Assembly (NCBI RefSeq): GCF_001076885.1
Contig: NZ_JVDT01000236.1
Span: forward strand, 1-32,652
Direction: 5' to 3'
Length of the DNA: 32,652 nt
From: Bacillus sp. 522_BSPC
GTDB lineage: Bacteria; Bacillota; Bacilli; Bacillales; Cytobacillaceae
Made by a program: the position numbers and the translations under genes. How positions within the stretch are numbered: the stretch's first letter is position 1; the number at the start of each line of letters is the position of its first letter. Below are positions 14,500 to 32,230 of the stretch, piece after piece. The notes under the pieces were generated by a model. That model had not been told where the DNA came from, searched no databases, and worked only from the letters and a program-made list of their open reading frames with translations.

Positions 14500-14507
14500 A
14501 TTTCAAT

Positions 14508-14537: not shown

Positions 14538-14549
14538 GCCCATACTCCA

Positions 14550-14756
14550 TTACTTCACATCGTAACCTTGATCATCAATTGTTTCTTTGATTTTATCTAA
14601 TGATACTTCAGCTTGGTTGAATTCCACATCTACTTTTTTGTTTTCTAAATCCACTTTAACATTTGAAACCCCACTAAGAGCACCAACACTGCCCTCAACT
14701 GCTTTTACACAATGTCCACATGACATACCTTCTACATTTAGAGTTACTTTTTCCAT
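14550..14756 (-). CDS. copZ: Copper chaperone CopZ
   Basis: A 68-residue HMA-fold metallochaperone with the copper-binding GMSCGHC motif (Cys13, Cys16) and the full length of the family. It hands Cu(I) to the N-terminal domains of CopA. It begins 14 bases after the csoR stop behind GGGAG and is followed by a terminator, so csoR-copZ form a two-gene operon. Unlike the usual order, copZ comes before copA and is transcriptionally separated from it. Confidence 0.95.
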
Positions 14757-14770
14757 ATTTATCTTCTCCC

Positions 14771-15115
14771 TTACTTTTTCATTAATTTTTGTATAGTAAC
14801 TAATACCTCATCTAAAACTTCCATGTCACCTTCTTGAATTCTATTTACAACACAATCTTTCATATGTGCTTCAAGAAGTAACTTTGCTACACCATTAAGC
14901 GCTGCTTGAGATGCAGCTATTTGTGTAATAACATCGTCACAATAAGTATCACACTCAATTAATCTTTTTATGCCCCGAATCTGACCTTCAATCCGGTTCA
15001 ATCGGGTTATAAGGTTTTTTTTCGTATTTTCAGAGTGATGGCTCATTCGCCCATGTGGATGGGAGCAGCAGCTATCCTCCTCTAAAGTTTTTTCATTTTC
15101 TAATTCAGGTTCCAT
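14771..15115 (-). CDS. csoR: Copper-sensing transcriptional repressor CsoR
   Basis: A 114-residue all-helical repressor. The Cu(I) ligand set Cys59-His84-Cys88 has the 25- and 29-residue spacing of B. subtilis Cys45-His70-Cys74. The W-x-y signature context is GQIRGIKRLIECDTYCDDV and LLEAHMKDCVV. The N-terminus is extended by an unusual Cys/His segment (CCSHPHGRMSHH, residues 16-27) that could add a metal site. GGAGG precedes the ATG. The protein should release the operators in its own promoter, the copB promoter and in front of copA when copper is bound. Confidence 0.95.
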   Translation of the reverse strand: MEPELENEKTLEEDSCCSHPHGRMSHHSENTKKNLITRLNRIEGQIRGIKRLIECDTYCDDVITQIAASQAALNGVAKLLLEAHMKDCVVNRIQEGDMEVLDEVLVTIQKLMKK

Positions 15116-15136
15116 TTTACTTCCCTCCTCGATTAA

Positions 15137-15166
15137 AATATAGCATACCCATGTACCCTATGTAAA
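15137..15166 (-). promoter_or_regulatory. csoR promoter with operator in the spacer
   Basis: On the minus strand TTTACA (15161-15166) and TATATT (15137-15142) are separated by 18 bp that hold the operator-like GGGTACATGGGTAT. Repressor binding would block polymerase directly. The same composite is found before copB. Confidence 0.75.
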
Positions 15167-15311
15167 GGGTCCTTTTCATGAAAAAGAAAAACGCATAATT
15201 CCATTCCTCTAGTTAATTGTATAAGGATAAGATTTGTTTTATTTTAGGATTTAATACTGAAAACTTTGAAACAATTCATTAAGGTAAAAATCGATAGTTT
15301 GACGAAAGAAA

Positions 15312-15347
15312 TGGCACAACAAGCGTTTATATCTACTTGATGTGCCA
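15312..15347 (-). terminator. Terminator after copB
   Basis: TGGCACAACAAG (15312-15323) pairs with CTTGATGTGCCA (15336-15347) with one mismatch. On the minus strand a T-rich stretch (TTTCTTTC) follows. It lies 22 bp beyond the copB stop. Confidence 0.6.
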
Positions 15348-15368
15348 TGAGATCTGAATTTACCACAC

Positions 15369-17492
15369 TTAGTCAATCTTCAATAATTGTGCATTAATTG
15401 CACAAATAATAGTACTTAGTGACATAACCACTGCTCCAATAGCTGGTGTTATGACTATACCTACACTGAACAAGACACCTGCAGCTAAGGGAATGGCGAT
15501 TATATTATATCCCGCAGCCCATCCTAAGTTTTGAAACATTTTTCTATGACTAGCTTTTGACAACTTAATGATGTTTAAGATATCTTCTGGATTGCTATTC
15601 ACTAGTACGACATCAGCAGTTTCAATTGCCACGTCTGTACCTGCACCAATGGCGATTCCTACATCAGCCTCAGCTAAGGCAGGAGCATCGTTAACACCAT
15701 CTCCAATCATCGCGACTTTTTTTCCACCTTGTTTTAGACCTTTTACATTATCTGATTTTTCATGTGGTAAAACCTCAGCAATTACCTTCGAAAGTCCAAG
15801 CTTTTCACCCACATAATTGGCCACTCTACTATTATCCCCAGTCATCATGATCGTTTCAATCCCACGTTCATTCAATTCTTTAATGACTCTAAAAGAAGAT
15901 TCTCTGATAATATCTGCTAAAGCAATCATTCCTTGTAACACATCATCTTTTAAGACGAAAACAACTGTTTTACCTTGCTTTGCAAGTTTCTCGTACATAC
16001 TCTCATCAAACGCAATTTTATTCGCTCTCATCGTACCCGGACTAACCACTGCAATTTCTGTATCATTTACTTTTGCAACTAGTCCTTTTCCTGTTAAGTT
16101 TTGATAATCTTTAACATTATAAGGCTCTATCTTTCGTTCCTTCCCCTCTTTTACAATTCCTTTAGCAATTGGGTGTTCAGATTGAATTTCAACTGAATAG
16201 GCCAATCTAAATAATTCATCTTCACTTACTCTATTACTTGGAATAATATCTGTCACACCGAAGTTCCCTTCTGTTAAGGTACCAGTTTTATCAAAAACGA
16301 TACGATCTAGTTTAAACGCACTTTCAAAAGAGGTACGATTACGTATTAACAAACCTTTTCTAGCAGCAATGGATGTAGATCTTGCAGTAACCAACGGAGT
16401 AGCAAGGCCAAGCGCATGTGGACAAGCAATAATCAAGACAGTAACCATTCTTTCTAAAGCAAAATCTAGTTCACCTGTTGTCAACCAGTAGGCGAAGGTT
16501 ATGACACCTACAACAATTGCCACATAAAATAGCCATTTAGCAGCGATATCCGCAAATCCCTGGGCCTTCGATTTAGTCTTTTCTGCATCACTAACTAACT
16601 TAATTACTTGCGCTAAATAAGTTTCATTACCGGTTTTACTTACTTTGATTTTCAGTACACCTTCACCATTAACCGCTCCGCCAATTGCTTCCATACCCGT
16701 GCTTTTTTCTACAGGTACGGATTCACCTGTTAACATGGATTCATCAACGGTTGATTTTCCTTCAAAGACTTTTCCATCAAGTGGGATCTTTTCTCCTGGT
16801 TTAACGAGGATCTGATCCCCCGGTTGTAGATCTTCTACACTAACCTCCACAATGTTTCCCGATGCATCAATTTTATGTGCTTCTTTTGGCATCAACTTAA
16901 TTAACTCTTCCAATGCCTTTGAAGCACCCATAATGGATTTCATTTCAATCCAATGTCCGAGAAGCATAATGACGATTAAAGTAGCTAATTCAAAGTAAAA
17001 GTCACTACCTTCAATAAAGAAGGCGGTTAATGTGCTATATACATAAGCTGTTACGATGGCTAGTGAGATTAATAGCATCATTCCAGGTGCTCTTTCTTTC
17101 AATTCACTCCAAGCACCGAGTAAAAATGGTTTTCCACCGTACAAAAAGACTATGGTTGAAAGTAAAAACAGTAATAATGTATCACCAGTAAAATTCACAT
17201 CATAACCAAATAGCATTTCAATCATTGGTGACAAGTATGAAATAGGTATTGCTAAAACTAATGATATCCAAAAGCGTTTTTTAAAGTCCCCTACCATGTG
17301 TTCGTGGTGACCAGAATGTCCTCCATGGTTGCTATGATTATGTCCTTCATGTGCACTATGATTATGTTGAACTTGGTCACTATGATTGTGATGTTCATGT
17401 CCTTCATGCATACTATGTTCATGGTGGGTATGATTAATGTGATTGTGATGTTCATGAATGTTTTTATTTTCTGGTTTATTTTGCTTTTCCAT
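15369..17492 (-). CDS. copB: Copper/silver P-type ATPase of the CPH (CopB) type
   Basis: A 707-residue P1B ATPase lacking HMA domains. It starts with a His-rich cytoplasmic head (23 His in the first 66 residues). The membrane motif is CPH ([14 protein letters not shown]), typical of the CopB/P1B-3 group that exports Cu(II), Cu(I) or Ag(I). [23 protein letters not shown] and [12 protein letters not shown] mark an intact catalytic core. It starts after AAAGGAGATG. The promoter, with a CsoR-type operator, lies about 200 bp upstream, leaving a long leader. Together with CopA it gives two pumps of different type under one repressor. Confidence 0.95.
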
Positions 17493-17692
17493 AGTTAGCC
17501 CATCTCCTTTAAATATTTTCCCCTAAAAGATTCCACTCTCATATGCATTATTACTTTTACATATTCTTAGTGACGTTTATTAATAACTGATTATCTAGTT
17601 GTGACTCTTTCGTTCTCTTAAACAAAAGTTGGGATTTTTTCCGACAATAAATCTTTTACTAATAAGTTTTATTCTTATACCTCTTCGATTTA

Positions 17693-17722
17693 ATTATAGT
17701 ATACCCTGGTACCTTATGTAAA
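17693..17722 (-). promoter_or_regulatory. copB promoter with CsoR-type operator
   Basis: Minus strand: TTTACA (17717-17722), an 18-bp spacer, then TATAAT (17693-17698). The spacer reads GGTACCAGGGTATAC, closely matching the csoR promoter spacer. The transcript would carry about 190 bases of leader before copB, in which I see no riboswitch fold. Confidence 0.8.
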
Positions 17723-17764
17723 GTGTCGTTTCAAACAAAATATTGTTCGTACACTGACACACAC

Positions 17765-17796
17765 AAAGAGCTAATTCTTTTAAGAATTAGCTCTTT
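17765..17796. terminator. Terminator after the DUF1541 gene
   Basis: AAAGAGCTAATTCTT (17765-17779) pairs perfectly with AAGAATTAGCTCTTT (17782-17796), a 15-bp stem. It lies just past the stop of the lipoprotein gene. Confidence 0.8.
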
Positions 17797-17819
17797 GATG
17801 GACTTAGTAGGATGCAAGT

Positions 17820-18452
17820 TTATTTAACAGGTGATAATTCACTTTCGGTTACCCATTTATGGTTTTTAACCTCTTCACCTGTAGTTGTTGTAAAATCAAC
17901 CATATAAACAGTCGTTTGTTCAGCTGAGTCTATTTCAAGGGTTGCACCCGCCATTCCTTCCATATGGTCTGCCTCTGTTTTTGCTTCTGCTCCAGGCTCT
18001 AAAGGGGCTTTCCCTGGATTGACTAACTCTTCATGAATAACCCATTTATGGTCTTCCACTCTTTCTCCACCCGTTGTAGGAGTATAGGATACCGTATAAA
18101 CAGTAGTGTCATAAGCACCTACTATAGTTGCTTCTGCACTTTTCATCCCTTTCATATGATCAGATTGAATAATTGCTTTACTTCCAACAGGGTATGTTGG
18201 TTTTTTCGCTTCTTTCAATCCTTCTGGAACTTCACCAGAACCAGAGTGATTCATATAAGAATGGTCCATTTCCTCCATCTCTTCATCAGTATCTTTTTCC
18301 GGATTTTCATTATCGTTAGTTGTCGTTTCTTGATTTCCTGTTTCTTCTTCAACAGGTTGCGCTTTATCATCTGTGTTTGCACATGCACCTAATACTAATA
18401 TTAAAGAAGCAAGTAGGATGTATAATATCGATTTTTTATTTGTTTTCTTCAT
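17820..18452 (-). CDS. YdhK-like lipoprotein with two DUF1541 repeats
   Basis: A 210-residue exported lipoprotein: signal peptide with lipobox LGAC, a Glu/Asp/Asn-rich linker with MDHSYMNHSG, then two DUF1541 repeats (~85-145 and ~150-208). Each repeat contains DHMxGM, TTVYxV and DHKWV or NHKWV. Members such as B. subtilis YdhK are common beside copper and other metal resistance genes; the His-Met-Met pattern suggests metal binding outside the membrane, though this is not proven. GGAGG precedes the ATG. It is probably a separate unit in the copper block, closed by its own strong terminator. Confidence 0.85.
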   Translation of the reverse strand: MKKTNKKSILYILLASLILVLGACANTDDKAQPVEEETGNQETTTNDNENPEKDTDEEMEEMDHSYMNHSGSGEVPEGLKEAKKPTYPVGSKAIIQSDHMKGMKSAEATIVGAYDTTVYTVSYTPTTGGERVEDHKWVIHEELVNPGKAPLEPGAEAKTEADHMEGMAGATLEIDSAEQTTVYMVDFTTTTGEEVKNHKWVTESELSPVK

Positions 18453-20253: not shown

Positions 20254-20376
20254 TGTAACTGCTAAACTATAATCAACAGTTTCTGCTAAATAAGATTGAA
20301 CATTTTTTACCAAAATATTCCTCAGCTGAGATATGATAGATTTACTATCGTTTGTTATAGCTGGAGGGTAAGAAAG

Positions 20377-21129
20377 GTGGAAAAGTTACTATTGTTTGTG
20401 GAAATACATCAATTAAAGAAACAGGGATTTAAAGTAGCAGCCATTGCAAAAAAATTAGAGATTTCTAGAAACACCGTTTATAAATACTTAGATATGAATC
20501 TAGAAGAAGCATCAGATTGGATTACATCTCTAGGAAGTAGGAGGAAAAAGTTAGACCAGTATCACGATGATATTCTAAGCTGGTTGAAGGAACATCCTGA
20601 TCTCTCCTCTGCACAAGTGGAGGATTGGTTAAAAGAGCATTACCCAACATTGGATGTTGGAGGTAGTACCGTTCGCTTGTATGTTAGTCAGTTAAGAGAT
20701 ATCTATCATATACCTAAAGTTGTACGTATTCGATCACATGAGGCTGTAGAGGAATTACCAAAGGGCCAACAAGTTCAAGTAGATTGGGGAGAAATTACTG
20801 TTAAAAATTCAGAAAAGAAAGATATTAAGTTATACTTTATCACCTTTGTCCTCTCTCATTCTCGTTATAAGTATGTGGAATGGTTAGATCGTCCTTTTAC
20901 AACGAGGGATACGATAAGATGCCACGAAAAAGCGTTTCAGTTTTTTGGAGGAATGCCGGAGGAAATTGTTTATGACCAAGACCATCTCATAACTGTAAGT
21001 GAGAATGCAGGTGACATTATTTTAACCAGTGAATTTCAGGCATACAAACAAGATCGAGGATTTCGAATTTACTTATGTAGAAAGGCAGATCCCCAGAGCA
21101 AAGGTTATGTTAAGACTTCCGTTATGTAA
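20377..21129 (+). pseudogene. istA: IS21 transposase IstA, 5' fragment
   Basis: The N-terminal half of IstA, starting at GTG 8 bases after GGAGGG. It holds an HTH (FKVAAIAKKLEISRNTVYKYL), a second DNA-binding segment, and the first two catalytic Asp of the DDE domain (QVDWGEI, VYDQDH). The gene is cut in ADPQSKG; the last residues YVKTSVM and the stop come from the RIT element end. The third catalytic residue, the Glu expected in the KGKVE-type continuation, is lost. The 3' part resumes at about 26085. Confidence 0.88.
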
Positions 21130-21188
21130 AGATTGACCCCCAAACATGGTGTTAACAACGAAAGCCTTAACATTATTTCTTTACATAA
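21104..21188. repeat. Left end recombination repeats of the RIT element
   Basis: GTTATGTTAAGA (21104) and GTTATGTAAAGA (21121) are direct copies 17 bp apart; an inverted copy TCTTTACATAA ends at 21188, directly beside the stop of the third recombinase gene. The right end mirrors this arrangement. These are likely core and arm-type recombinase binding sites. Confidence 0.75.
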
Positions 21189-22211
21189 TTATCTGCGATT
21201 GAAACTCTTAAGCCAGTCTTTCAGATTTGAATCATTATCCCAAATGGCTTCTTCTGAAGGCACGATTTCCTTGCTTGCTGCCTCGATGGCTAGTCTTTTA
21301 TGCATTGCATCCGCCCTTGCATACATTTCTGTCGTTTTCACGCTTACATGTCCAAGTAAATCTCGGATATAAATTAAATCCACACCCGATTCGACTAACC
21401 CCATAGCGGTTGTGTGTCGCATTTTATGCGGACTGAAGTCTGCAGAAATCATATCTGGGGCAATTCTTCGTGCCATTTTTGTATATTTTCCTACGATATA
21501 ATTAATTCCTTGTCTAGTGAAAGGTTCATTCATGTGATTTTTAAACAGCCATTCACCTAGTTTCTCTGGTTTGTCGTATCTTTTTTGAACTAGATATTTA
21601 TGAATAAAAGGGATTGTATTGCGCATTAGCGGTACATATCTACTTTTTTGCCCTTTCCCGTGAACCAATAGTGTGAAGGGCTCCTGTAACGACAGATCTT
21701 TTATCCGGATTTTTATTAATTCACTGACACGGATTCCAGTTGTATACAGAAGGGATAAAATAAGGTAATCCCGCAACCCATTCTGCCGACTTAAATCTAC
21801 TTGTTCGATTAATAACGCTACGCCATCAGTTTTAAGATAAGAAATTTCCTTTTGTGGTGCCTTCTTGACCGGTATGCCAAGAATTTTTTGGTATTCATCT
21901 AAGTGTTCAGGAAATTCGTACATAAGGAAGCGAATGAAGCTGTTTAGGGCTGCCTGCCTTTGGTTTCTAGTCGATATTCCGTTTGATCGTGTTACCTGAA
22001 GCCAGTTCAGGTAATCAACCACATTATTGCGAGTAAGGTCAGATACATCTACCTTATCGGCAGAAATTCGATGTTCATCCTGCATATATGTTAGGAAAAG
22101 GATAAAGGAATATCTGTACGAATCAATCGTCTGAGGGGTGCTTCCACAATTGTTCGGAAGGTAACCCGTAAAATATTTGTTCAAATATAAGGCGAAATTG
22201 GTTTTTTTCAT
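21189..22211 (-). CDS. Tyrosine recombinase, third of the RIT trio (RitC)
   Basis: A 340-residue phage-integrase-family recombinase with a SAM-like N-terminal domain and an intact catalytic set: Arg in TTGIRVSELIKI, HKMRHTTA box, GHVSVKTTEMY with His and nucleophile Tyr. It is the most XerC/D-like of the three. The ATG at 22211, behind GGGAGGG, overlaps the previous stop (ATGA); a longer start at 22229 has no better site. All three recombinases are thought to be needed for RIT movement, though this has little experimental support. Confidence 0.88.
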   Translation of the reverse strand: MKKTNFALYLNKYFTGYLPNNCGSTPQTIDSYRYSFILFLTYMQDEHRISADKVDVSDLTRNNVVDYLNWLQVTRSNGISTRNQRQAALNSFIRFLMYEFPEHLDEYQKILGIPVKKAPQKEISYLKTDGVALLIEQVDLSRQNGLRDYLILSLLYTTGIRVSELIKIRIKDLSLQEPFTLLVHGKGQKSRYVPLMRNTIPFIHKYLVQKRYDKPEKLGEWLFKNHMNEPFTRQGINYIVGKYTKMARRIAPDMISADFSPHKMRHTTAMGLVESGVDLIYIRDLLGHVSVKTTEMYARADAMHKRLAIEAASKEIVPSEEAIWDNDSNLKDWLKSFNRR

Positions 22212-23173
22212 AACGTGGTTCCCTCCCAAAACACTCTATCTAGTTTTGATTTAAACTTTTCCTCGATATATGGATAAATACCCATGGTTAGCCTGATATA
22301 ACGTTCTGTTGCAAATATTGTTTTATGCCCCAAATATGTGGACAGGATTGGAAGAGCGACATACATATCCATGCCAGCATCAACCATCTTCTTGAATGAA
22401 TATACGGCCATGGTATGCCTCCAGTCGTGGATTCTAGGCCCCTTCCCTCCCCCAAGATAGGGAATTCCAGCCTGCCGGAGGAATAACCTGTGCGCCTCAT
22501 ATATGGCATCCCCACTCATTCTACCTCCGGTGGAAGTGGTGAAAATATAGTCTTTGTCATCCAGCAAGTAAAAGCACTTTTCCGCAAATTGTTTCACGAG
22601 CACCCTTAGGTCTTCCCCCAATACGATATAGCGCTCGCAATCATTTTTGGTTTCAAACAGCTTGACAATCCCATTCTCCAAATCCACATCCTGTTTTCGT
22701 ATCCCCAGAGTCTCATTGATTCTTGTACCGCAACAATACAACAGGCGGAATAAGACAGGGTATTGGATTGCGGCCTTTCGGTTTCGGGAAGATTCGTAGG
22801 TATCCACTGCGTGGAAATACCTTCTTATTTCATCCTCGGTATAAATATAGGGTTGGAATTCCGTCGGTTTAAATTTGATATCCTTGGTAACATATACATT
22901 GTAGCCCTTCTGAAAGAGGAACATAAGAAAATGCTTGACTCCATTAATCCGAGAATAATGTGTAGTTGTGGCTTCAGCATCTTTTTTTTGTAGCCACCTT
23001 GCCGCATCTTCTGTAGTGAATATAGGTTCTTTAATCCCTAGTCGGATGCAGAAACTGTCAAAATGACGTAGATGGGTACAAAAACTAATAGCCTTATAGC
23101 CCGAAGCCACTTTATATTCAAGATAGGCATTCATTTCATCGGCAAATACAGAGTGGAATACTGGTGTGTTCAT
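22208..23173 (-). CDS. Tyrosine recombinase, second of the RIT trio (RitB)
   Basis: A 321-residue tyrosine recombinase. The catalytic residues are present: Arg in CCGTRINETLGI, box HDWRHTMAV, and GHKTIFATERY with the Tyr nucleophile. The N-terminal domain (VFADEMNAYLEYKVASGYK) differs from that of the other two. Its ATG immediately follows the first recombinase stop (TGAATG) and uses GGGAGGTG inside the end of that gene, indicating coupled translation. It overlaps the third gene by four bases. Confidence 0.88.
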   Translation of the reverse strand: MNTPVFHSVFADEMNAYLEYKVASGYKAISFCTHLRHFDSFCIRLGIKEPIFTTEDAARWLQKKDAEATTTHYSRINGVKHFLMFLFQKGYNVYVTKDIKFKPTEFQPYIYTEDEIRRYFHAVDTYESSRNRKAAIQYPVLFRLLYCCGTRINETLGIRKQDVDLENGIVKLFETKNDCERYIVLGEDLRVLVKQFAEKCFYLLDDKDYIFTTSTGGRMSGDAIYEAHRLFLRQAGIPYLGGGKGPRIHDWRHTMAVYSFKKMVDAGMDMYVALPILSTYLGHKTIFATERYIRLTMGIYPYIEEKFKSKLDRVFWEGTTL

Positions 23174-24412
23174 TCATTGCACCTCCCATCTAAAATGTGC
23201 TGAATGCAGTTCGGGCATGGGAAGGGGGCATTGCTTCAGTTTCTTTACATCGACGGCTAGATAAATTTTGGTTGTTTCTGTATTTTGATGCCCCATGACG
23301 GTACTAATGACGGGCATGGATACGTTTCTTTTTAGCATGTTGGTCGCAAGACTATGCCGCAAGGAATGGGCACCATGCTTCTTTGCCTTCCAATTTTTAA
23401 TGTTCGCCTTGCCCATATACTTTGAAACAATGGAGTGGACGGTCGGTGGGGAAAGCGGCTGTCCTTTTTTGACAGTATCAGCGGCTACAATAATTTCTTC
23501 AGCGTTCGTTTTCGGGCGACCATGCTTTAGATAATCGATGATGGCATTTCCGACTGATGAAAGAAGAGGGTATTCTACCGGTATATCAGTCTTGCTTTGG
23601 TTAAAACTAATGACATTATTATCCCAGTCAATCTGAGTGAACCGGAAGCTTACGATATCCTTTGTACGCCAGCCATATTCCGCAGCTAAAAGTAAAATAA
23701 GGTAATCCCTTTTTCCGATCGAAGATGAACGCTCCACGGAAGCAATCACGCTGCTTATTTCTTGTTCTTCGTATGTTGTGGGGATTTTACAATGTTTTTT
23801 ATAATTATCAGCGAGAACAAAAATGGAACAGTCCTTTTTTGTCAGTCCGTTATCGTAAGCATGTCGTAGAAAAATCCGTAAAGTTGATCCGCTGTTATGC
23901 CTTGAGGCAGGGGAGTAATCCATAGATTTGAAAAAGTTTTCTACTATGTCTACATTCAATTCTTCCAGGACCAATGAACGCCCGTTGAGGAACATATGAA
24001 ATTCATACAAATACTGTTTCTTATTTCTTATCGTTTCATCGGATAGATGCAGGACGTTACTAGCATATGAAAGATATGATTCTATGATTTTACCAATTTC
24101 ACCATCAAAAATTCGTTCAACACGAGGGGTGCGGAATTCAAAATCTCCATCTTTTTGGTAAGAAATCAACATTCGCACTGCCCTGAGTCTTACCCGATCC
24201 TTTTTGTTTACAATTTTCGTTAGGATATGATCCCCAAAAACCTCATCACAGTATGCAAAGCCGATAGACTCGGAGAAATCCGTGTGTTGATGTTCTTTCA
24301 TCCATTGTTGTAGCCTATCCCATTCCGTTTTGATTTTCAGGTAATGCATACCGCCGTATTCACGGCTAATTAATTCATCTTGGCACAAGGAAACGAGCTT
24401 TTTAAAATCCAT
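23174..24412 (-). CDS. Tyrosine recombinase, first of the RIT trio (RitA)
   Basis: A 412-residue recombinase, the longest of the three because of an extended N-terminal region. Catalytic residues: Arg in EYGWRTKDIVSF, box HSLRHSLAT, and GHQNTETTKIYL with the Tyr. The start ATG at 24412 lies 7 bases after AGGAGG. That ribosome site falls in the 10-base loop of a small hairpin, CCAAAC/GTTTGG (24415-24436), a possible translational control point for the whole operon. No promoter was confidently placed between the start and the right-end repeats. Confidence 0.88.
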   Translation of the reverse strand: MDFKKLVSLCQDELISREYGGMHYLKIKTEWDRLQQWMKEHQHTDFSESIGFAYCDEVFGDHILTKIVNKKDRVRLRAVRMLISYQKDGDFEFRTPRVERIFDGEIGKIIESYLSYASNVLHLSDETIRNKKQYLYEFHMFLNGRSLVLEELNVDIVENFFKSMDYSPASRHNSGSTLRIFLRHAYDNGLTKKDCSIFVLADNYKKHCKIPTTYEEQEISSVIASVERSSSIGKRDYLILLLAAEYGWRTKDIVSFRFTQIDWDNNVISFNQSKTDIPVEYPLLSSVGNAIIDYLKHGRPKTNAEEIIVAADTVKKGQPLSPPTVHSIVSKYMGKANIKNWKAKKHGAHSLRHSLATNMLKRNVSMPVISTVMGHQNTETTKIYLAVDVKKLKQCPLPMPELHSAHFRWEVQ

Positions 24413-24460
24413 AACCAAACCTCCTAAAATGTTTGGTTACTTCGTAACACAGATGATTTA

Positions 24461-24543
24461 TTATGTAAAGAAATAGGCATTAAGTATAGGGATATCCTTG
24501 AAAAGAAGCCTATTTCTTTACATAACAAAAATCTTAACATAAC
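24461..24543. repeat. Right end recombination repeats of the RIT element
   Basis: TTATGTAAAGAAATAGGC (24461-24478) is inverted perfectly at 24508-24525, and an outer TCTTAACATAAC (24532-24543) repeats the motif in direct order 17 bp further out. The order is the mirror image of the left end: inner inverted copy, then two outer direct copies. Confidence 0.75.
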
Positions 24544-25312
24544 CCTTGCTACGGGGATCAAAAGGAGCTGTGTGCGTTAAGGTAATTCCCAATTGTGCGC
24601 ATGCATATTGAAGTGTTTCAGATCGATAGATCTTACCATTGTCCGTATAGATGATAGTGGGCTTTCCTCTACGTATTAAAGCTTCTTTTGTTACTATTCT
24701 TAAACCATCGAATTTTTCCGTTGAAAAAAATTGTGCATATGGAACGATTCTAGAACAGTCATCGATATATGCTATAAGAAAGGTTTTCTTTCTTTTTCCG
24801 TCCATTGGCACATAAGGACCATGAGATAAATCCCCCTGCCAAAGGACATTTACCTTTTCATGAGCGAATCTTTTTCTTTCAGGAATGGCTAAAATTTGTT
24901 TTCCTGATAGGTTGTGTTTTTTCAATAATCGATTTATAGTAGAGTAAGATATTTGCTTTTGTTGAATCTCTCCACGCTTGATTAGTTGTTCGTAGAAAAC
25001 ACTAACAGGCATGTGGGGAGATTTTCTTCTTATTTCTAAAATATGATCCTGATCATCAGGAGACAGTCTTCTGGAGTTTCCTCGATCTCCTCGTTTCTTT
25101 GGTTTTAATGCTTCAAAACCATTTCTCCGATAATGAAGTAACCATTCTTTGATTGTTTTTTCGGCAATCTTTCGCTCTCCATAATAAGGCATAGAATGAA
25201 TTTTTCCATCTAGTCCTTGAAAATACTCCTTTGAATCTACTTGCCCATTTAAAAGAGGGGCAATCAGGCCATACCGAAATAAAGCCACTTGTTCACGTTC
25301 TTTTTCAGTCAT
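24518..25312 (-). pseudogene. DDE transposase of a second insertion sequence, 3'-truncated
   Basis: A 264-residue reading frame: N-terminal helix-turn-helix domains (~1-130, including KTIKEWLLHYRRNGFEALKP), then an rve-type integrase core with catalytic Asp in WQGDLSHGP and YTDNGKIY. The chain is broken at FDPRSKG; the last residues YVKIFVM and the stop belong to the RIT end. The catalytic Glu expected three residues later is therefore missing, so the protein is inactive. The start is supported by AAAGGAGG. It resembles Mu/IS481-like integrases that travel with DUF6431 proteins; I cannot name the IS. Confidence 0.82.
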
Positions 25313-26084
25313 GGAATTTCCTCCTTTTGATTAGAAGGACAACCGGTTATCCATATATCCATTCTACTTTTTTCGATATTTTCTGACTATGAAAAAGGTA
25401 TGTGGGGAGGCTATTATTTTTTATTGTCACCAAATATGGTAGAATTAATTTGCCATAAAGTATTTTGATAAGTGACCCCAGGACCTTCGCAAGAAGGTTG
25501 ATTCGCCAAAATCGAGGATCATTTTCAAGTATTTTATGGTTTCTTTATTTTTATCTGGGGACATCCCCCCTTTGAAACCAATATCAATAAAGAAACTGTG
25601 TATCCACTGTAATTTTCTACTGAAGCGAATTAGATAAAACCTTAATAATTGTCGACTGCCGTTAGATTTTTTCTTCTCTATAAATTGTTTGATCCGGTTT
25701 AAAACCGTTTGAATGGTATGTTGAAAATAAGAGATCAAAAGGTCTGGGAGAATGGAAAAACTCACTCTACACCCGAGACATTTTAGCCGACATATAGGAA
25801 TCCTTAAAGTTCTATCCTCCGAGATTCCATACCTCCAATAATAGCCATTTCTTTCAAGGTTCCCTTGGGATACACACTTACAATTTGGACAAGTATTGAA
25901 TGTTGGAAATGCATTCGATTTCCCCCTTGCCGCATATTCCTCCAAACTTATTCCGAAATCATGAGAAATGATCATAAAAAAACTCCTCCCTTTGAATATG
26001 CAAAAAATTTAGCATATTACTTAGGAGAAGTATAGATAGTAGTCTGTAAGAATTTGAAAAATATAACTGCAATTTAGAGGAATT
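24545..26084 (-). mobile_element. Remnant of second insertion sequence inside istA
   Basis: Minus-strand segment with a DUF6431 gene followed by the truncated DDE transposase. Its left side ends at the RIT junction; its right side must end near 26070-26090, where istA resumes. I could not identify terminal repeats or a target duplication, because the other end has been deleted. An AATATGC/GCATATT inverted pair (25995-26018) lies just upstream of the DUF6431 gene and may be part of its promoter or end. Confidence 0.65.
25445..25975 (-). CDS. DUF6431 zinc-ribbon transposon accessory protein
   Basis: A 176-residue protein with a zinc-ribbon-like cysteine pattern: CPNC near residue 33 and CLGC near residue 69, separated by a GYYWRYG segment, and then FSILPDLLISYFQHTIQ, which fits the DUF6431 family. 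Members are encoded next to DDE transposases and are assumed to assist transposition; their function is not known. GGGAGGAG precedes the ATG by 8 bases. The gene appears intact, but its partner transposase, 132 bp downstream, is truncated. Confidence 0.7.
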   Translation of the reverse strand: MIISHDFGISLEEYAARGKSNAFPTFNTCPNCKCVSQGNLERNGYYWRYGISEDRTLRIPICRLKCLGCRVSFSILPDLLISYFQHTIQTVLNRIKQFIEKKKSNGSRQLLRFYLIRFSRKLQWIHSFFIDIGFKGGMSPDKNKETIKYLKMILDFGESTFLRRSWGHLSKYFMAN

Positions 26085-26087
26085 AAT

Positions 26088-26684
26088 GTGACAGTTTACA
26101 ACAATGTCATAAAATATAAATCTAATCGTTATTCTCTACCCTTGGGGACTTATCGTCCAAGGGGAGAGAATACGGTATATATAGAAATTCAAGAGCAAGA
26201 ACTTGTGATAAGAAGAGAAACGCAGGGAGAAGTCTTAGCAAGACATCCCCTATGCCATGGAAAAGGGGAATTAATTAAAAACAGACAGCATACAAGGGAT
26301 CGTTCAAAGGGAATTCAAGCTTATAAGGAAACCTTGATTCGTCAGTTTAAAGATCAGGAAAAGGCAGAAAGATTTATATATGAGATAGGAAGCCGTTATC
26401 AGAGATATATACGTGATCAGCTTCAAGTCATTCAAAGCACCATTAACCATTATCGAATAGTAGTAGACGAATCCTTAGCTGTTTGTATAAAGGACCAGTT
26501 ATGGAGTGCAAATGACCTTCGGGATGTGGCACAACATTTAACCCGGTTAAAAGAAGCAAAAGCCCCGAATCCTTCCTCGATTCAAGGAACAAAAAATAGT
26601 CATATCAACACCGCATTAAAAGCCACAGCAGCAACAAGGGAAATGGACGACTATATCAAGATACTAGGTGGTGTTTTACAATGA
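26088..26684 (+). pseudogene. istA: IS21 transposase IstA, 3' fragment
   Basis: The C-terminal part of IstA, beginning with TVYNNVIKYKSNRYSLPLGTY, the typical beta-barrel-like domain after the catalytic core. The frame is open from 26067, but sequence before about 26085 no longer looks like IstA. Compared with full-length IstA (about 490-515 residues) roughly 50 to 100 codons between SKG and this point are missing. The stop overlaps the istB start (ATGA), the normal IS21 arrangement. Confidence 0.85.
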
Positions 26685-27445
26685 CTCAAACGGTACATAA
26701 CTTACAGGAGTATTTTCGCCAAGTGAGAATGACGGAAACAGCAAATGAATTACCTGTGATACTTCGTAACGCAGAAAAAATGTCCTGGACCTATCAAGAG
26801 TTCCTGCAGGAACTTCTTATGTACGAGCTAAAGCGACGTGACGAAAAAAACATAGAAAGAAGATTAAAGTGGGCCAAGTTCCCTTATCATAAGAAATTGG
26901 ATGAATTTCATATTGAAGAACAACGATCGTTAAGTACTCGTCAACTTAACCAATTAAGGGAACTGAATTGGTTAGATCAACAATATAATTTAATTTTATT
27001 AGGACCTCAAGGTGCTGGAAAAACCCATATTTCCATTGGACTAGGAATAGAGGCCATTCAAAAGGGTTATAAAGTTACCTTTTCAACCATGGGTGAACTA
27101 GTACATCTCTTAAAAACCGAAGAATATATAAAAAAGTCTCAAAGCCAGCTTAAAAGAATTAGGGAATCAGATTTAGTTATTATTGATGATTTAATGTATA
27201 TGGCTATTGATCAACGGGAGGCTAATTTGTTCTTTCATCTAGTAAATCATTTATATGAGCGTAGTTCTATTATATTAACCTCTAATAAAGGACCTGAAGA
27301 ATGGGGTGAATTGATGGGAGACCAAGGAATTACCATGGCTATTTTGGATCGGATACTTCACCGAGTTGAAGTCATACAACTTAATGAAAATGACAGCTAC
27401 AGGCTTAAACACCGGACTGCTATTTTTGAAAATGAATCTGTTTAA
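26681..27445 (+). CDS. istB: IS21 transposition helper ATPase IstB
   Basis: A 254-residue AAA+ ATPase of the IstB/DnaC type that selects target DNA and activates IstA. It carries an N-terminal helical domain (~1-95), Walker A GPQGAGKTH (~108-116), Walker B LVIIDDLMYM (~168-177), and the sensor region SIILTSNKGPEEWGE. It is intact, but without a functional IstA it cannot move this element; it could act in trans with a related copy. It starts within the end of istA. Confidence 0.93.
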   Translation: MTQTVHNLQEYFRQVRMTETANELPVILRNAEKMSWTYQEFLQELLMYELKRRDEKNIERRLKWAKFPYHKKLDEFHIEEQRSLSTRQLNQLRELNWLDQQYNLILLGPQGAGKTHISIGLGIEAIQKGYKVTFSTMGELVHLLKTEEYIKKSQSQLKRIRESDLVIIDDLMYMAIDQREANLFFHLVNHLYERSSIILTSNKGPEEWGELMGDQGITMAILDRILHRVEVIQLNENDSYRLKHRTAIFENESV

Positions 27446-27481
27446 ATCGAAACAAAACTAGAAATTGGAGGATGAAAGAGA

Positions 27482-27805
27482 TTGAATACATTGACCGTAC
27501 AAGAGACAACTAATCTTATGCATTCATATGGAATCAAATGTGATAGGGCTAACGTAGAGCAATGGCTCGATGAAGGGAAACTTAAAGGAAAGATAAGTAA
27601 AGAGACTTATATGATTGAAGAAGAAGATGTTTATAACTTCCTAGACTTCTATAGGTGGGAAGGAACAGCCTATGAAAGAGGAATTGACGATAAGACAAAG
27701 ATTAGCAGATTATTAGATGAAATTAAATATTTAAAACAGCAAGTAGATGAATTAGAAGAGGAAAATACAAAACTTATGAGTCAACTCGATATTTTACCTT
27801 ATTAA
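27482..27805 (+). CDS. Accessory HTH/coiled-coil protein inside the IS21-family element
   Basis: A 107-residue protein starting at TTG, 10 bases after GGAGG. The first half (LTVQETTNLMHSYGIKCDRA, then VEQWLDEGKL) looks like a MerR/excisionase-type winged helix that reads an element end or promoter. The second half (SRLLDEIKYLKQQVDELEEE, then NTKLMSQL) is a coiled coil for dimerisation. It lies between istB and the right terminal repeats, so it belongs to the element. Standard IS21 members have only istA and istB. A regulatory or target-selection role is inferred. Confidence 0.7.
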   Translation: MNTLTVQETTNLMHSYGIKCDRANVEQWLDEGKLKGKISKETYMIEEEDVYNFLDFYRWEGTAYERGIDDKTKISRLLDEIKYLKQQVDELEEENTKLMSQLDILPY

Positions 27806-27820
27806 AATAAACAGGATACC

Positions 27821-27846
27821 TCCCCATCCTATCGCCAAGATGGGGA
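27821..27846 (+). terminator. Hairpin at the end of the IS21 gene block
   Basis: TCCCCATC (27821-27828) pairs with GATGGGGA (27839-27846), between the accessory gene and the right end repeats. No strong T-run follows, so it may also insulate the element from outside transcription. Confidence 0.5.
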
Positions 27847-27856
27847 AATCTAAACA

Positions 27857-28677: not shown

Positions 28678-29055
28678 TTAGAAATTACTACTTTGTGATG
28701 CACCACCTGTTCCATGCATACTTTTATACATTTCTTCTAGTTCCTTATTATCTAAGTTCGGATGCATTTTGCTCATTAATGGCTTCATTTGTCCAAAGTT
28801 AATATTTCCATCTTCCATGAATTTTTTCATCTCATCTAAGTCTACTCCCTGTTCTTCCATGTAATTTTGCATATCGTCCAAATTTCCAGTTCCCATCATA
28901 TTTGCCATTTGATCATAATCAATTCCTAGTTCTTGCATCATTGAAGCCTGATTAACAGGAGTATCTTTAGCAGATGCTATATATAAGCCAGTTCCTCCCG
29001 TTACAATAAATGCTGCAGCCAAAGCTCCAATTAATATAGTCTTTTTCATCATCAT
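28678..29055 (-). CDS. Met-rich secreted protein with NFGQ-HPxL-KEL-MY-HG motif
   Basis: A 125-residue exported protein: signal peptide (~1-29, ILIGALAAAFIVTGGTGLYI) and a mature chain with about 14 Met. Three loosely repeated units are visible (GIDYDQMANMM, GVDLDEMKKFM, NINFGQMKPLM), ending in MHPNL, KELEEMYKSMHG. The end matches the protein at 11.5-11.7 kb. Methionine-rich exported chains commonly bind Cu(I) or Ag(I), so periplasm-like metal buffering is a reasonable but untested guess. Three consecutive ATG codons follow AAGGAG; the second or third has the better spacing. Confidence 0.75.
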   Translation of the reverse strand: MMMKKTILIGALAAAFIVTGGTGLYIASAKDTPVNQASMMQELGIDYDQMANMMGTGNLDDMQNYMEEQGVDLDEMKKFMEDGNINFGQMKPLMSKMHPNLDNKELEEMYKSMHGTGGASQSSNF

Positions 29056-29105
29056 ACACTCCTTATTTATAATAGATTGTTAAATTTTTAAATTTACATC
29101 CGTCT

Positions 29106-29351
29106 TTATAGTAGATATTTCTTGATTTGTTCGAACTCTTCTACCGTAATTTCTCCACTGGCAAGTCTTGATTTTGCTATTTCAAACGCTTCTAAATTAT
29201 GTGCAGGCTGTACCGCCATCATATTTCCATTTCCAGTATTTTTGTGGTTATATGCCAAATAAAGAAGTACCCCTATAACCAAAATGACTATGATCATCAT
29301 GAATGACCCACCTCCCATTCCAAATCCTCCAAAATATCCAGGTCCCATCAT
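29106..29351 (-). CDS. Small membrane protein with SHOCT tail (2)
   Basis: An 81-residue protein: a Gly/Met-rich start (MMGPGYFGGFGMGGGSF), one membrane helix (MIIVILVIGVLLYLAY), a Met-containing linker and a SHOCT motif (AFEIAKSRLASGEITVEEFE, then QIKKYLL). It is preceded by GGAGG and by a promoter of the shared tandem-repeat type. It heads the minus-strand unit with the Met-rich secreted protein 50 bp downstream. No specific function is known. Confidence 0.75.
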   Translation of the reverse strand: MMGPGYFGGFGMGGGSFMMIIVILVIGVLLYLAYNHKNTGNGNMMAVQPAHNLEAFEIAKSRLASGEITVEEFEQIKKYLL

Positions 29352-29386
29352 TACTATTTCCTCCTTGTATTATTATCTACACTCTT

Positions 29387-29419
29387 AACATACCTTCAAA
29401 AGATGAAGAAAATATGAAG
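29387..29419 (-). promoter_or_regulatory. Tandem-repeat promoter of the SHOCT/Met-rich unit
   Basis: Minus strand: CTTCATA and CTTCATC 11 bp apart, then 9 bp, then TATGTT as -10 (29387-29392). The half-sites differ slightly from the CTGCA type near system 1 but match the kinase-2 promoter. Confidence 0.55.
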
Positions 29420-29444
29420 CTTTTTAAATGATTTATTTCATTTT

Positions 29445-29477
29445 CTCCATAAAATCTCCTTATTTTCTTAGTATGAT
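29445..29477 (+). promoter_or_regulatory. Tandem-repeat promoter of the His-rich small gene
   Basis: CTCCATA (29445) and CTCCTTA (29456) 11 bp apart, a 9-bp gap, then TATGAT (29472-29477). Back-to-back with the promoter on the other strand, so one regulator could control both directions. Confidence 0.55.
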
Positions 29478-29504
29478 TTTAAAAAAAGATTAGGAGTGAT
29501 TTTA

Positions 29505-29708
29505 ATGGAATGGTTATTATTGTTGCTTTGCCCACTTATGATGATTTTCATGATGAAAGGTATGGGTGGTCATGGGCACAAGCAACATGGTCACGATTCA
29601 CACTCTTCGGAAGTGTTGGATAAAAAAATGTCAAACCTAGAATTAGAAAATGAAAAGCTGCGAAAAGAAATCGACTCTCTTTCAGCCATGGTGAAAAAGG
29701 AGTCATAA
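29505..29708 (+). CDS. Small membrane protein, Met/His-rich with coiled-coil tail
   Basis: A 67-residue protein: an N-terminal helix (EWLLLLLCPLMMIFMM), then KGMGGHGHKQHGHDSHSS with five His, then a charged coiled coil (LELENEKLRKEIDSLSAM). The start ATG at 29505 is 6 bases after TAGGAGTG; a GTG at 29496 overlaps that site. The His patch suggests metal binding at the membrane surface. Similar short proteins accompany copper genes in Bacilli as far as I recall, but I cannot give a family name. Confidence 0.7.
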   Translation: MEWLLLLLCPLMMIFMMKGMGGHGHKQHGHDSHSSEVLDKKMSNLELENEKLRKEIDSLSAMVKKES

Positions 29709-29819
29709 ATCAAAAATCCGTTGCCCATAGAAAGACAGAGTATTTTTGGATTTCTTAGCACATGGAAGTAGCCATAATTATTATTTGGTTCAGACGGTGA
29801 AAAGGTTATGCAAAATATC

Positions 29820-29879
29820 GATATGCAGAAAAGGATACAGGAATCCTATGATGGATCATTGTATCCTTTTCTGCATATC
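29820..29879. terminator. Large terminator-like hairpin with 20-bp perfect stem
   Basis: GATATGCAGAAAAGGATACA (29820-29839) is complementary to 29860-29879 over all 20 bases, with a 20-base loop. CTACTTTTATT follows on the plus side. It lies between the converging small genes and probably terminates both. Confidence 0.7.
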
Positions 29880-29902
29880 TACTTTTATTAAACAACAATA
29901 TA

Positions 29903-30148
29903 CTAATTATATTTGTCCCTATTTTTCCTTATAATTAAATATATCAATAAGATGATTCCTATGATAATAAGTAAAATCCAAAATATTTGACTAAACCAGA
30001 ATGACATATGATTAACCATCATATGCCGCCCCATCATCATCCCCATTGGTCCGGGCGTAAACCAAATCATTTTTAGTACAAAAAGTAAAAAAATAATCCC
30101 GATTAGTATGAAGAAGCTCAATATGATTATTGGCCATAGCCGTTTCAT
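29903..30148 (-). CDS. Two-helix membrane protein with Met/His-rich external loop
   Basis: An 81-residue protein with two membrane helices (~5-28 and ~50-74). The loop between them, GPMGMMMGRHMMVNHM, holds seven Met and two His and should face outward. The start ATG is 10 bases after the regulator-2 stop, behind AAGGGTGAG, so kinase, regulator and this protein form one operon. It occupies the same third position as the NusG-II-like protein in system 1. It could be an accessory that presents metal to the sensor; this is inference. Confidence 0.72.
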   Translation of the reverse strand: MKRLWPIIILSFFILIGIIFLLFVLKMIWFTPGPMGMMMGRHMMVNHMSFWFSQIFWILLIIIGIILLIYLIIRKNRDKYN

Positions 30149-30158
30149 TTTCTCACCC

Positions 30159-30842
30159 TTATTCCACTTTATATCCAATACCCCAAACGGTTTTAATTGA
30201 CAATTTATCAATACCTGAAGCTTTTAGCTTTAGCCGTAAATTCTTAACGTGCACATCTACCGTTCTATCTTCCCCCATAAACTCAAGCCCCCAAATATGT
30301 TCCACTAGTTGTTCTCTTGATAATGCTTTTCCCCTATGTCTAATAAAAATTTCTAAAAGATCAAACTCAGTTGGAGTCAGATTAAGCTTTTGATTTTCAT
30401 AAGTAACTTCTCTAGCTGTAAGATTTAAAATAACTCCTTCATATTTTAATACTTCATGTTGATCCATATTTTCCTCTTGATTATGGGCTCTACGCAGCAG
30501 AGCATTTACCCGTGCTAATAATTCTGCTTCATCAAATGGTTTTACTAAATAATCATCAGCACCACTAGACAAGCCAGTGACCTTATCTTGGATCGATCCC
30601 TTAGCAGTTAACATAATAATTGGAATATTTGATATTTTTCTTACTTCCTCAAGCGTCCTCCAACCATCCATAATGGGCATCATAACATCTAAGATCATTA
30701 GATCATAATCATCTTTTTTCACTTTTTCAAAAGCATCCTGTCCGTTGTCAGATTCATCTACTTGATAATTATCCTGAAGTAAATAAATTCGCAATAACTG
30801 TCTCATTTCAAATTCATCATCTACAATTAATATTTTCTTCAT
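30159..30842 (-). CDS. OmpR/PhoB-family response regulator 2
   Basis: A 227-residue regulator with receiver acidic residues Asp8/Asp9, phospho-acceptor Asp52 (ILDVMMPIMDG), Lys in VKPFDEAEL, and a winged-helix output domain (LTPTEFDLLEIF, DRTVDVHVKNLRLKL, GIGYKVE). It overlaps the kinase stop by four bases (ATGA). The likely targets are the three CTYCATA-type tandem-repeat promoters at 29.4, 29.45 and 32.3 kb, which include its own operon. Confidence 0.92.
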   Translation of the reverse strand: MKKILIVDDEFEMRQLLRIYLLQDNYQVDESDNGQDAFEKVKKDDYDLMILDVMMPIMDGWRTLEEVRKISNIPIIMLTAKGSIQDKVTGLSSGADDYLVKPFDEAELLARVNALLRRAHNQEENMDQHEVLKYEGVILNLTAREVTYENQKLNLTPTEFDLLEIFIRHRGKALSREQLVEHIWGLEFMGEDRTVDVHVKNLRLKLKASGIDKLSIKTVWGIGYKVE

Positions 30843-32230
30843 CGGTTTCTCCTAGATTTATTTTCTTGATCAATGGTTAAAAATATCGTGAAAATGGATC
30901 CTTCGTTTTCTGTACTTTTTACGGTAATAGTTCCACCATGGGATTCGATGATTTGTTTAACCACATATAATCCTAATCCGGATCCCCCTGTTTTTCTTGT
31001 ACGGGAAGAATCAACCCGATAAAAACGTTCCCAAATTCTTGGTAGATTATTTTGAGGTATACCTATTCCAGTGTCTTTTATTTCTATTCCAATCAAATCT
31101 CTTTTAGAAAAGGAACGAACTGAAATCCCTCCAATATTTGTATACTTAATTCCATTCTCTATAAGGTTATAAAACACTTGTTCCATTCTTCGGATATCTA
31201 CATAAAGAAGAGGTAAATCCTCTTCCAATTCACCCCATAACTCCAATCCTTTTTTCTCTGCAACGGGCTTCAGATTGGAAATAATTTTTTCCATTATGTC
31301 ATTGATCGAGGTCCATTCTTTCGTTAATTCAAACTTTCCTGTCTGCAGTTTGCTCATCTCAAATAAATCATTTACTAAAAAAGAAAGCCTATTTGTCTCT
31401 TTGTTAATAATTTGCAAGTATTCTTCCTGTTCTTCTCTATTTTTTATGATACCTTTACTTAACACATCACTATACCCTTTAATATAGGTTAATGGCGTTC
31501 GAATTTCATGTGATACAGCCGCCAAAAAGTCATTTCTACTTTCTTCATAATATTGGAGTTGTTCTCCCAAGGTTTGAATGGAATTTCCAAGTTGAGCAAT
31601 TTCATCCCTACCATGAATAGGTACTTTTTGCTTATACTTTCCTTCAGCCATTTTGAGGGTTGCCTCTTTCATTGTTAAAAGAGGCTTAGTAAATACCCGC
31701 GATAAAATTCCAATGAGTCCAAATGCAACTAACATTATCCCTAAACTTGAAATAAAGCTTAATAAACTCATGACAAAAATAATTTCCTTAATAATAGAGG
31801 AAGGGTAGTACATATATACATATCCTTGATTTTCACCAACAGGAGAAACGGAGACAATATACTCATGGTTTTTCCAATCATTCTCTATAACCTGTCCTGT
31901 ACTGATTGGTTTGTCCAAAAAAATATGATCAATTATATCTTCATCAAGTTCAATAGATGAAGATATAATTTGATATTGATTATTGGTAATTAGAATTTTA
32001 GTAGATACTCCCTGCTCCATTTGAATGGCATGATTAATTGTAGATTTAGTAAATTGTTTCTCTAAATTTTGCGCATGGTTATTACCTTTTGCTACTAAAT
32101 CCTGTTCGATATAATCAGTAAAAAAATTAGTAAAAACACCATATAAAATAAATCCCAATATTAAAAGCAACGAAAGAAATATGGTACTAAACCATAAACC
32201 AAGTTTGAAGGAAATACTTTTAATCTTCAC
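30839..32230 (-). CDS. Sensor histidine kinase of two-component system 2
   Basis: A 463-residue kinase: membrane helix (~13-35), external sensor domain (~36-147), second helix (~150-176), HAMP, HisKA with His241 (AAVSHEIRTPLTYIKGYSD), HATPase with NLIENGIKYT, DTGIGIP and GGSGLGLYVV. The sensor domain shares GNNHxxxLEKxF, INHAIQME, ITN, SSS, VSPV and GYVYM with kinase 1, including His52/His67/Met71 at the same spacing. GTG start with AAGGAG 12 bases upstream, a little far. It leads the kinase-regulator-membrane protein operon. Confidence 0.9.
   Translation of the reverse strand: MKIKSISFKLGLWFSTIFLSLLLILGFILYGVFTNFFTDYIEQDLVAKGNNHAQNLEKQFTKSTINHAIQMEQGVSTKILITNNQYQIISSSIELDEDIIDHIFLDKPISTGQVIENDWKNHEYIVSVSPVGENQGYVYMYYPSSIIKEIIFVMSLLSFISSLGIMLVAFGLIGILSRVFTKPLLTMKEATLKMAEGKYKQKVPIHGRDEIAQLGNSIQTLGEQLQYYEESRNDFLAAVSHEIRTPLTYIKGYSDVLSKGIIKNREEQEEYLQIINKETNRLSFLVNDLFEMSKLQTGKFELTKEWTSINDIMEKIISNLKPVAEKKGLELWGELEEDLPLLYVDIRRMEQVFYNLIENGIKYTNIGGISVRSFSKRDLIGIEIKDTGIGIPQNNLPRIWERFYRVDSSRTRKTGGSGLGLYVVKQIIESHGGTITVKSTENEGSIFTIFLTIDQENKSRRNR

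Follow-up and report, generated by a model that had tools for sequence, protein, structure and literature searches.

RIT elements probably take codons of conserved, mostly active-site motifs of other mobile elements as their attachment sites

Recombinase in trio (RIT) elements, named in 2009 according to the literature covered here (full texts in part, titles and abstract starts), are described from Cupriavidus metallidurans and others as three consecutive tyrosine recombinase genes of ~3.5 kb, flanked by inverted repeats with an overlapping palindrome and present in multiple copies in some genomes. The covered passages of one study report one RIT in a Tn6049-like transposase gene and one in radC, with a 28-9-bp inverted repeat and an overlapping palindrome, and note that the end repeats do not fit usual recombinase sites, giving no target rule (PMC3414803). 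RITs were also found to inactivate radC in two species as well as an IS66 tnpA (PMC2864759, in part), and RitA was assigned two CB domains and RitC an extra C-terminal helix (PMC8138268, in part). Related systems in the covered passages are the GInts (genomic islands with three integrases), several unrelated ones of which enter ssb at its start or, by preference, at its end and whose four genes are essential (PMC5385486), and the strand-biased circularizing integrative elements (SEs) and Tn554, tyrosine-recombinase transposons with target specificity and a 6-bp footprint (PMC10214605). Here we analyze an element organized like these published RITs in contig NZ_JVDT01000236.1 of Bacillus sp. 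522_BSPC, the whole 32,652-nucleotide stretch being termed the window. From this element and its relatives we conclude with high confidence that the attachment sites of RIT elements are codons of conserved, mostly active-site motifs of other mobile elements, that insertion would proceed through a core of a circular form, and that the arrangement in the window would have arisen by recombination between targets.

The window element spans 3,438 bp (21105-24542) bounded by inverted repeats, and its genes ritC, ritB and ritA, each encoding a tyrosine recombinase (PF00589), all lie on the minus strand within 21189-24418. Its parts and the adjoining cores are the following (L and G numbers denote loci and genomes of our survey).

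21100..21104, plus strand: left recombination core AAAGG, the Lys-Gly codons of istA (from the sequence; AARGG in 15/15 five-prime junctions compared)
21105..21132, plus strand: RitC-side terminal inverted repeat TTATGTTAAGACTTCCGTTATGTAAAGA (inverted-repeat comparison; close match in L004 and others)
21189..22229, minus strand: ritC, tyrosine recombinase, ATG at 22211 (PF00589, 2.2e-32; RitC profile)
22208..23173, minus strand: ritB, tyrosine recombinase (PF00589, 4.4e-21; RitB profile)
23174..24418, minus strand: ritA, tyrosine recombinase (PF00589, 1.4e-26; 92% identity to L004)
24515..24542, minus strand: RitA-side terminal inverted repeat (inverted-repeat comparison)
24543..24547, minus strand: right recombination core AAGGG (CCCTT on the plus strand), the Lys-Gly codons of an IS481-type transposase (from the sequence)

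The three genes are adjacent and share one orientation, with ritA adjoining ritB (23174/23173) and ritB overlapping ritC by 4 bp (22208-22211, counted from the ritC ATG). Each protein scores best with its own Rit profile, though that profile was built with the protein included, and the motifs HKMRH..Y, HDWRH..Y and HSLRH..Y, read by eye in the translations, would supply the catalytic His-Arg and Tyr residues. With the flanking target codons the inverted repeat extends to 43 nt at 86% complementarity (21090-21132 and 24515-24557), compared with the ~28-34 bp expected of RIT termini. Several near-identical copies per genome, a sign of mobility that membership does not require, occur in G246 (four) but not in the window genome (one). 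Between the inverted repeats we recognized no ginD, the fourth gene that marks GInts, only short overlapping open reading frames (ORFs); the gene content also differs from the SE set intA-tfp-intB-srap, and all three proteins are recombinases, whereas the Tn554 group combines TnpA-TnpB with a third, non-recombinase TnpC. The window element is thus a member of the known RIT family.

On both sides the element abuts a truncated transposase gene of an insertion sequence (IS).

20377..21104, plus strand: 5' part of istA (IS21 transposase), ending at DPQSKG (NF033546 transpos_IS21, 7.6e-43, 147 bits, cut-off 160; rve, 1.9e-12)
24543..25312, minus strand: 5' part of an IS481-type DDE transposase, ending at DPRSKG (NF033577, 4.6e-45, 154 bits, cut-off 224)

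The istA frame (...RKADPQSKG) is broken after AAAGG (21100-21104) and the minus-strand transposase (...PFDPRSKG) after AAGGG, so that the RIT joins two 5' halves cut at the same codons, SKG/KVE (slash, junction). NCBIfam matches the left half best to IS21 and the right half best to IS481, in each case under curated cut-offs that are set for whole proteins, and the halves gave no blastp match to one another. The codons lost were read from uninterrupted relatives, namely an intact istA relative (L122; DPQSKG-KVENVVKY) and a relative of the second IS (L126; PRAKG-KIERLF); both window halves lack the K-V/I-E following the junction, which we take to carry the catalytic Glu of both transposases. These comparisons bear out the initial annotation, which had described a RIT fused at the same codons to the 5' halves of two different transposases, each deprived of its catalytic-Glu region. 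Its wider proposal, that RITs use the active-site codons of DDE transposases as an attachment site, was to be judged by aligning the junctions of RIT relatives; the junctions read in 73 + 14 copies support the central claim.

The first sample (set A) comprised 73 RIT copies, complete or partial, found through their similarity to the window RitA or RitC, where 13 weaker matches (E 1.2e-53 to 5.2e-46) were left out, and by a plasmid search from which 10 of 740 records were chosen for spread; L109 duplicates L032 and was removed. The plasmids held no locus at >=60% identity to the window RitA, and the RitC search of viral contigs found no relative. A second sample (set B) of 14 plasmid copies, from 14 of 118 records, was drawn via a distant RitA (L047), the copies and the prediction being fixed before the flanks were seen. 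Target labels were assigned by the author from flanks and translations, and tallies are sums of such labels; they count copies, several genomes contributing two or four. Some motif names and catalytic roles in the labels are putative. A target could be read for 62 of the 73 set A copies, and in 55 of the 62 the element lies within a conserved motif of a transposase, IstB, tyrosine recombinase or group II intron reverse transcriptase (RT) gene.

DDE Glu motif: 24 copies
Tyrosine recombinase HxxRH: 8 copies
IstB Walker A: 7 copies
Group II intron RT motif PQGG/xISPLL: 5 copies
IstA second-Asp motif (DNL/KTG): 3 copies
IstB Walker B: 3 copies
IS66 CWAHARR: 2 copies
IS66 RKNWLF: 1 copy
IS4-type Glu motif: 1 copy
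IS4/Tn5-type first-Asp motif: 1 copy

The 24 copies of the first class (24/62) lie at or within ~3 codons of a K-G-x-V/I-E motif in many different transposases, as had been proposed; the rule itself is wider, since other clades use other motifs. A Pfam or NCBIfam match on at least one half accompanies 35 of the 55 motif placements. Among the DDE five-prime halves, Pfam rve is missing from three (L008, L034 and L037; NCBIfam IS21, IS21 and ISNCY, respectively), and the rve matches of L028 minus, L029, L030, L042 and L043 fall under the Pfam cut-off. Set B was readable in 13 of 14 copies, 11 of the 14 lying in motifs of IS, recombinase or plasmid metallopeptidase genes and 9 in IS or recombinase motifs when the metallopeptidase cases are set aside; L135, L136, L142, L144, L146 and L147 were read at one end only.

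Tyrosine recombinase HxxRH: L134, L135, L136
IstA first-Asp motif: L137 (label from the three-prime half; the five-prime frame is mostly IS110 transposase)
IS481-type first-Asp motif: L138
IS66 motifs: L140, L141, L143, L145
Zincin metallopeptidase motif of a plasmid protein: L146, L147
C-terminal end of an error-prone DNA polymerase: L142, L144 (L144 from a 16-codon tail, no profile)

Some victims appear to be RITs themselves: in L048 (RIT at 6985-10244) and L095 the copies seemingly interrupt tyrosine recombinase genes of other RITs, the L048 victim scoring as a RitB, and the half on the RitA side of L095 is unconfirmed, its neighbouring segment matching no family. RITs apparently invade RITs.

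The position of the junction within each motif was located on profile coordinates after cutting the halves at the core by hand, with an uncertainty of ~2 codons. Five-prime halves end at RVT_1 column 122 in 4/4 cases and the single three-prime half begins at 124; Phage_integrase is cut at column 133-134 in 8/8 halves; IstB ends at column 103 in 3/3 Walker A halves (three-prime half at 105) and at 160 in 2/2 Walker B halves; rve ends at column 74 in 2/2 second-Asp halves. The IS21 profile NF033546 ends at column 226 in 3/3 cut halves, compared with 230 for the window istA half scanned with its RIT-encoded tail. Column 157 of IS66 is shared by the L104 5' half and the L097 3' half, and amidoligase column 114 by both L085 halves. 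The same codon junction is found again in unrelated transposases carrying other RIT copies, which is more than chance would give. The 17 DDE five-prime halves fall into 14 clusters at 50% amino-acid identity and 7 at 30%, indicating that the targets do not descend from one inherited insertion, and in G246 four copies with identical RitC occupy four transposase genes, two of them 89% alike.

Target choice follows the recombinases. On a quick RitC tree (67 rows, 18 target labels, support by the Shimodaira-Hasegawa-like approximate likelihood ratio test, SH-aLRT, only), the labels require 19 changes, where 17 is the minimum possible and shuffled labels require 42.8 on average, none of 200 shuffles being as low. 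Near-copies aid this figure, but each of the larger groups (RT, IstB, tyrosine recombinase, DDE) draws its members from different genomes. The low number indicates that target choice is carried by the recombinase lineage and has changed several times. Since clades read different motifs, the family represents a natural experiment in tyrosine recombinase target change.

The anatomy of the junctions suggests how such sites might be used. Ordinary copies show target, core and element end on one side, and element end, inverted core, palindrome, core and target on the other. As judged by eye, the palindrome lies on the 3'-half side in 18/18 DDE-Glu copies showing one, in either element orientation, and on the 5'-half side in RT (4/4), IstA second-Asp (2/2) and IstB Walker B (3/3) copies with one. 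In G246, G101 and G218, the three informative genome pairs (three other pairs were uninformative), oppositely inserted copies carry the palindrome at opposite ends while its asymmetric centre stays fixed relative to ritA-ritC, as expected of a circle with a core-palindrome-core junction in which either core is usable. We propose that a circular RIT form would have its ends separated by a core, a ~20-24-bp palindrome and an inverted core, and that strand exchange would take place between one circle core and a matching 5-6 bp in the target gene. In either orientation the product would carry a core on one side and an inverted core, palindrome and core on the other, and the insertion would break the target gene. 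Each clade would be tuned to one motif, that of the window's clade being the Lys-Gly codons just before the catalytic Glu of DDE transposases. The inner core of L029, CAAGGG, differs from that of its own target, TAAAGG, and equals the target-side core of L028+ in the same genome, as if it had kept the memory of a previous site.

The window deviates from this ordinary arrangement in showing two 5' halves, and the sequence beyond them indicates how the two ISs were related.

25445..25975, minus strand: DUF6431 ORF of the same IS481-type IS (PF20020, 1.1e-5, 25.5 bits, slightly under the cut-off of 26.6; gene order in L126)
26101..26684, plus strand: 3' part of istA, past the end of the IS481-type IS at 26100 (L152 similarity ends at 26100; 80% nucleotide identity to L122)
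26681..27445, plus strand: istB of the interrupted IS21 (PF01695, 4.7e-68)

The window istA is 81% identical to intact L122 at the nucleotide level over 20254-21104; after the Lys-Gly codons 237-250 bp are missing, and istA continues at 26101, as the initial annotation had implied in noting the lost middle of this gene. The IS481-type half is 79% identical to an uninterrupted Metabacillus transposase. Its relative L126 has the gene order DUF6431, transposase, AAA ATPase and small ORF, a further relative (L127) being without an annotated DUF6431 gene. Three copies of a related IS occur in the window genome; each has a transposase frame of the full 435 codons, and identity to the window's in the overlap is 78.5-82%. 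Similarity to the fullest of these, the intact L152 on a 3,248-base contig, runs from 26100 (L152 position 1) to 24546 (position 1555), so that its limits are the IS end on one side and the RIT core on the other. It follows that the IS481-type IS is nested in istA and has lost the 3' part of its transposase gene along with the ATPase and the small ORF. The summed loss amounts to ~1.9 kb, if a second RIT copy was never present. The possibility that both flanks come from one ancestral composite transposon, with the shared codons a coincidence, found no support and is already contradicted, leaving it a negligible probability: relatives of both ISs occur without a RIT, one of them within the window's own genome, and many independent junctions lie at the same codons.

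Beside the nested ISs, ~410 bp with a 107-aa ORF (27482-27805) are inserted at 27447-27856 after istB with respect to intact IS21 relatives, and the final 12 bp of the IS21 match before this insert recur at 27857 (L122 3479-3490 being matched twice), as if a third small element had come in with a 12-bp duplication. Around them, at 8794-18452 and 28678-32230, lie genes named by eye as two metal P-type ATPases with a CsoR-like regulator, together with two two-component systems, also named by eye.

For the two 5' halves we favour, with moderate confidence, a crossover between two RIT copies, one per nested IS. A RIT would have inserted in the istA of the IS21 and another in the nested IS481-type IS; recombination between the two insertions would then remove ~1.9 kb plus one RIT copy, the lost sequence including the palindromes, the middle of istA and the 3' portion of the second IS, so that the element would be flanked by 5' halves only. 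Among the 52 copies with both ends readable, again by eye, six have 5' halves on both sides (the window, L010, whose second 5' piece is only ~35 bp, L090, L095, L104 and L134), L097 alone carries 3' halves, with a palindrome at each end, and L096 is mixed. Genome G339 contains both types ~30 kb apart on the same strand, L104 with IS66 5' halves and L097 with IS66 3' halves and palindromes on both sides, which are apparently complementary products of RIT-RIT recombination. A simple inversion pair was rejected, as both RITs lie on the same strand; unequal crossing-over or circle excision and re-entry would fit.

The same final structure could also result from one step, in which the free inner core of a single RIT in istA recombined with the core of the nested transposase gene, and the palindrome, the middle of istA and the 3' portion of the transposase were lost together. 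Ordinary copies do retain a second, inverted core beside the palindrome, the two window cores would be in direct orientation for such a deletion, and one event is simpler than two insertions and a crossover. Against this stand the existence of multi-RIT genomes and the G339 pair, in which L097 needs more than one RIT copy. We consider the one-step origin a possible but rather doubtful explanation. The initial annotation had proposed two insertions in nested ISs followed by a deletion; the nesting stands, on the evidence of the L152 end, and the deletion fits and has both 5'/5' and 3'/3' counterparts, although one step would give the same product. The window genome holds no second RIT copy and no palindrome of the searched form, so that the intermediate is not seen, which weighs against the proposed course of events. 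The sole pattern match there (C28) lacks RIT ends; it is a perfect palindrome lying shortly before a frame with a LacI-regulator-like start (by eye). A search of G246 for an empty site of the L029/L030 target matched, beyond the RIT-bearing copies, only another repeat in the query.

The window genome is a draft of 291 contigs, and no search was made in the rest of it for the lost istA middle; separate RIT copies in istA and in the IS481-type transposase might accordingly have been merged into a chimeric contig. Such an artefact is very unlikely, given the single RIT copy and the lack of RIT palindromes of the searched form in the assembly, a transposase C-terminal half that occurs only in the three full 435-codon copies and never as an orphan, and an istA that resumes on the same contig, at the far end.

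Several observations weigh against the proposed target rule and mechanism. Motifs read by eye underlie 20 of the 55 placements, and 11/73 set A copies (second pieces in L007, L010, L040 and L095; the third in L048; L046 minus, L089, L102, L103, L106 and L107) and 1/14 set B copies (L139) are unreadable. The initial annotation had named insertion of homologues at unrelated sequences as the finding that would speak against it, and this is seen in a few copies: L009 at a non-coding site, and L142, L144, L085, L086 and L098 in genes without a role in transposition. Among all the exceptions, two target amidoligase HVH (L085, L086), L039 lies at a lysozyme-like GWGH, L098 at a phage portal 3' end, and L096 has mixed flanks; the L009 site is non-coding and by eye somewhat resembles the coding targets (GAATATTGG/TAATAGTGAA). 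The minus-strand trio of L044 apparently lies in what we take to be the conserved 3' RNA region of a group II intron, outside its protein gene (GCCGGATGCG/GGAAATCCGCACG). The polymerase sites of L142 and L144 run counter to a pure mobile-element rule, the C-terminal end of the polymerase being presumably conserved as well. The palindrome centre in L004 points opposite to that in L005, L008 and L011 from other species and is thus no family constant, and a 2023 table, in the portion covered, lists RIT movement and target specificity as not tested (PMC10214605). As a separate observation, L142 and L144 are related RITs in plasmid-borne error-prone polymerase genes near copper and arsenic resistance genes.

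Some of these exceptions would agree with recombinases that read a short sequence and have no preference for active sites as such, insertions elsewhere being removed by selection: recognition is necessarily of DNA, the non-coding L009 site looks somewhat like coding targets, and some targets lie outside transposition genes. Selection would account for the concentration in mobile-element genes, but not for the use of one profile column across divergent proteins, nor for a different motif in each clade. We regard this explanation as improbable.

Taken as a whole, RITs would then be parasites of parasites, a generalization that we hold on balance to be probable: each clade would attach at the DNA encoding a motif that ranks among the most conserved in a selfish gene family (DDE Glu or Asp, IstB Walker A or B, HxxRH including that of other RITs, RT PQGG-ISPLL, IS66, ArdC-like zincin), and a palindromic two-core attP would make either end usable and RITs agents of deletion between targets. 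If true, RITs find places to land across many genomes, leave the host unharmed and disable the element that they enter. This would add an element-against-element layer to IS dynamics, in which insertion should kill transposase, IstB, integrase or intron genes. Target and mechanism of RITs have so far not been shown in the literature covered; with a codon-level rule their movement becomes directly testable. The rule also provides attB and attP sequences for immediate use and suggests that site-specific recombinases directed at coding motifs form a widespread class.

Within that literature we found no RIT target rule, the main RIT survey (Ricker 2013), which might state one, lying outside it. 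The initial annotation's impression that the pattern was undescribed thus holds for the rule, while individual cases of RITs in transposase and radC genes have been published. As far as the coverage goes, the target rule and the two-core palindromic site are new: compared with published RITs, whose covered passages give no target rule, the copies analyzed here show a clade-specific conserved-codon rule and a core-palindrome-core anatomy. GInts, in the passages covered, resemble the window element in having three recombinase-type genes and site specificity but possess one gene more, all four being essential, whereas the window element makes do with three and interrupts its target within a catalytic motif. 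SEs and Tn554 have other gene sets and, in the covered passages, no active-site codon preference.

Elements that home to and disable another element are also known from the IS110-type transposases of IS5075/IS4321, which are aimed at the terminal repeats of Tn21-type transposons, unlike the coding motifs of many families targeted here. Inteins and group I introns likewise sit at codons of highly conserved active-site residues, but splice out and spare the host protein; in the window, by contrast, both target frames reach a stop a few codons inside the inverted repeat, which does not suggest splicing.

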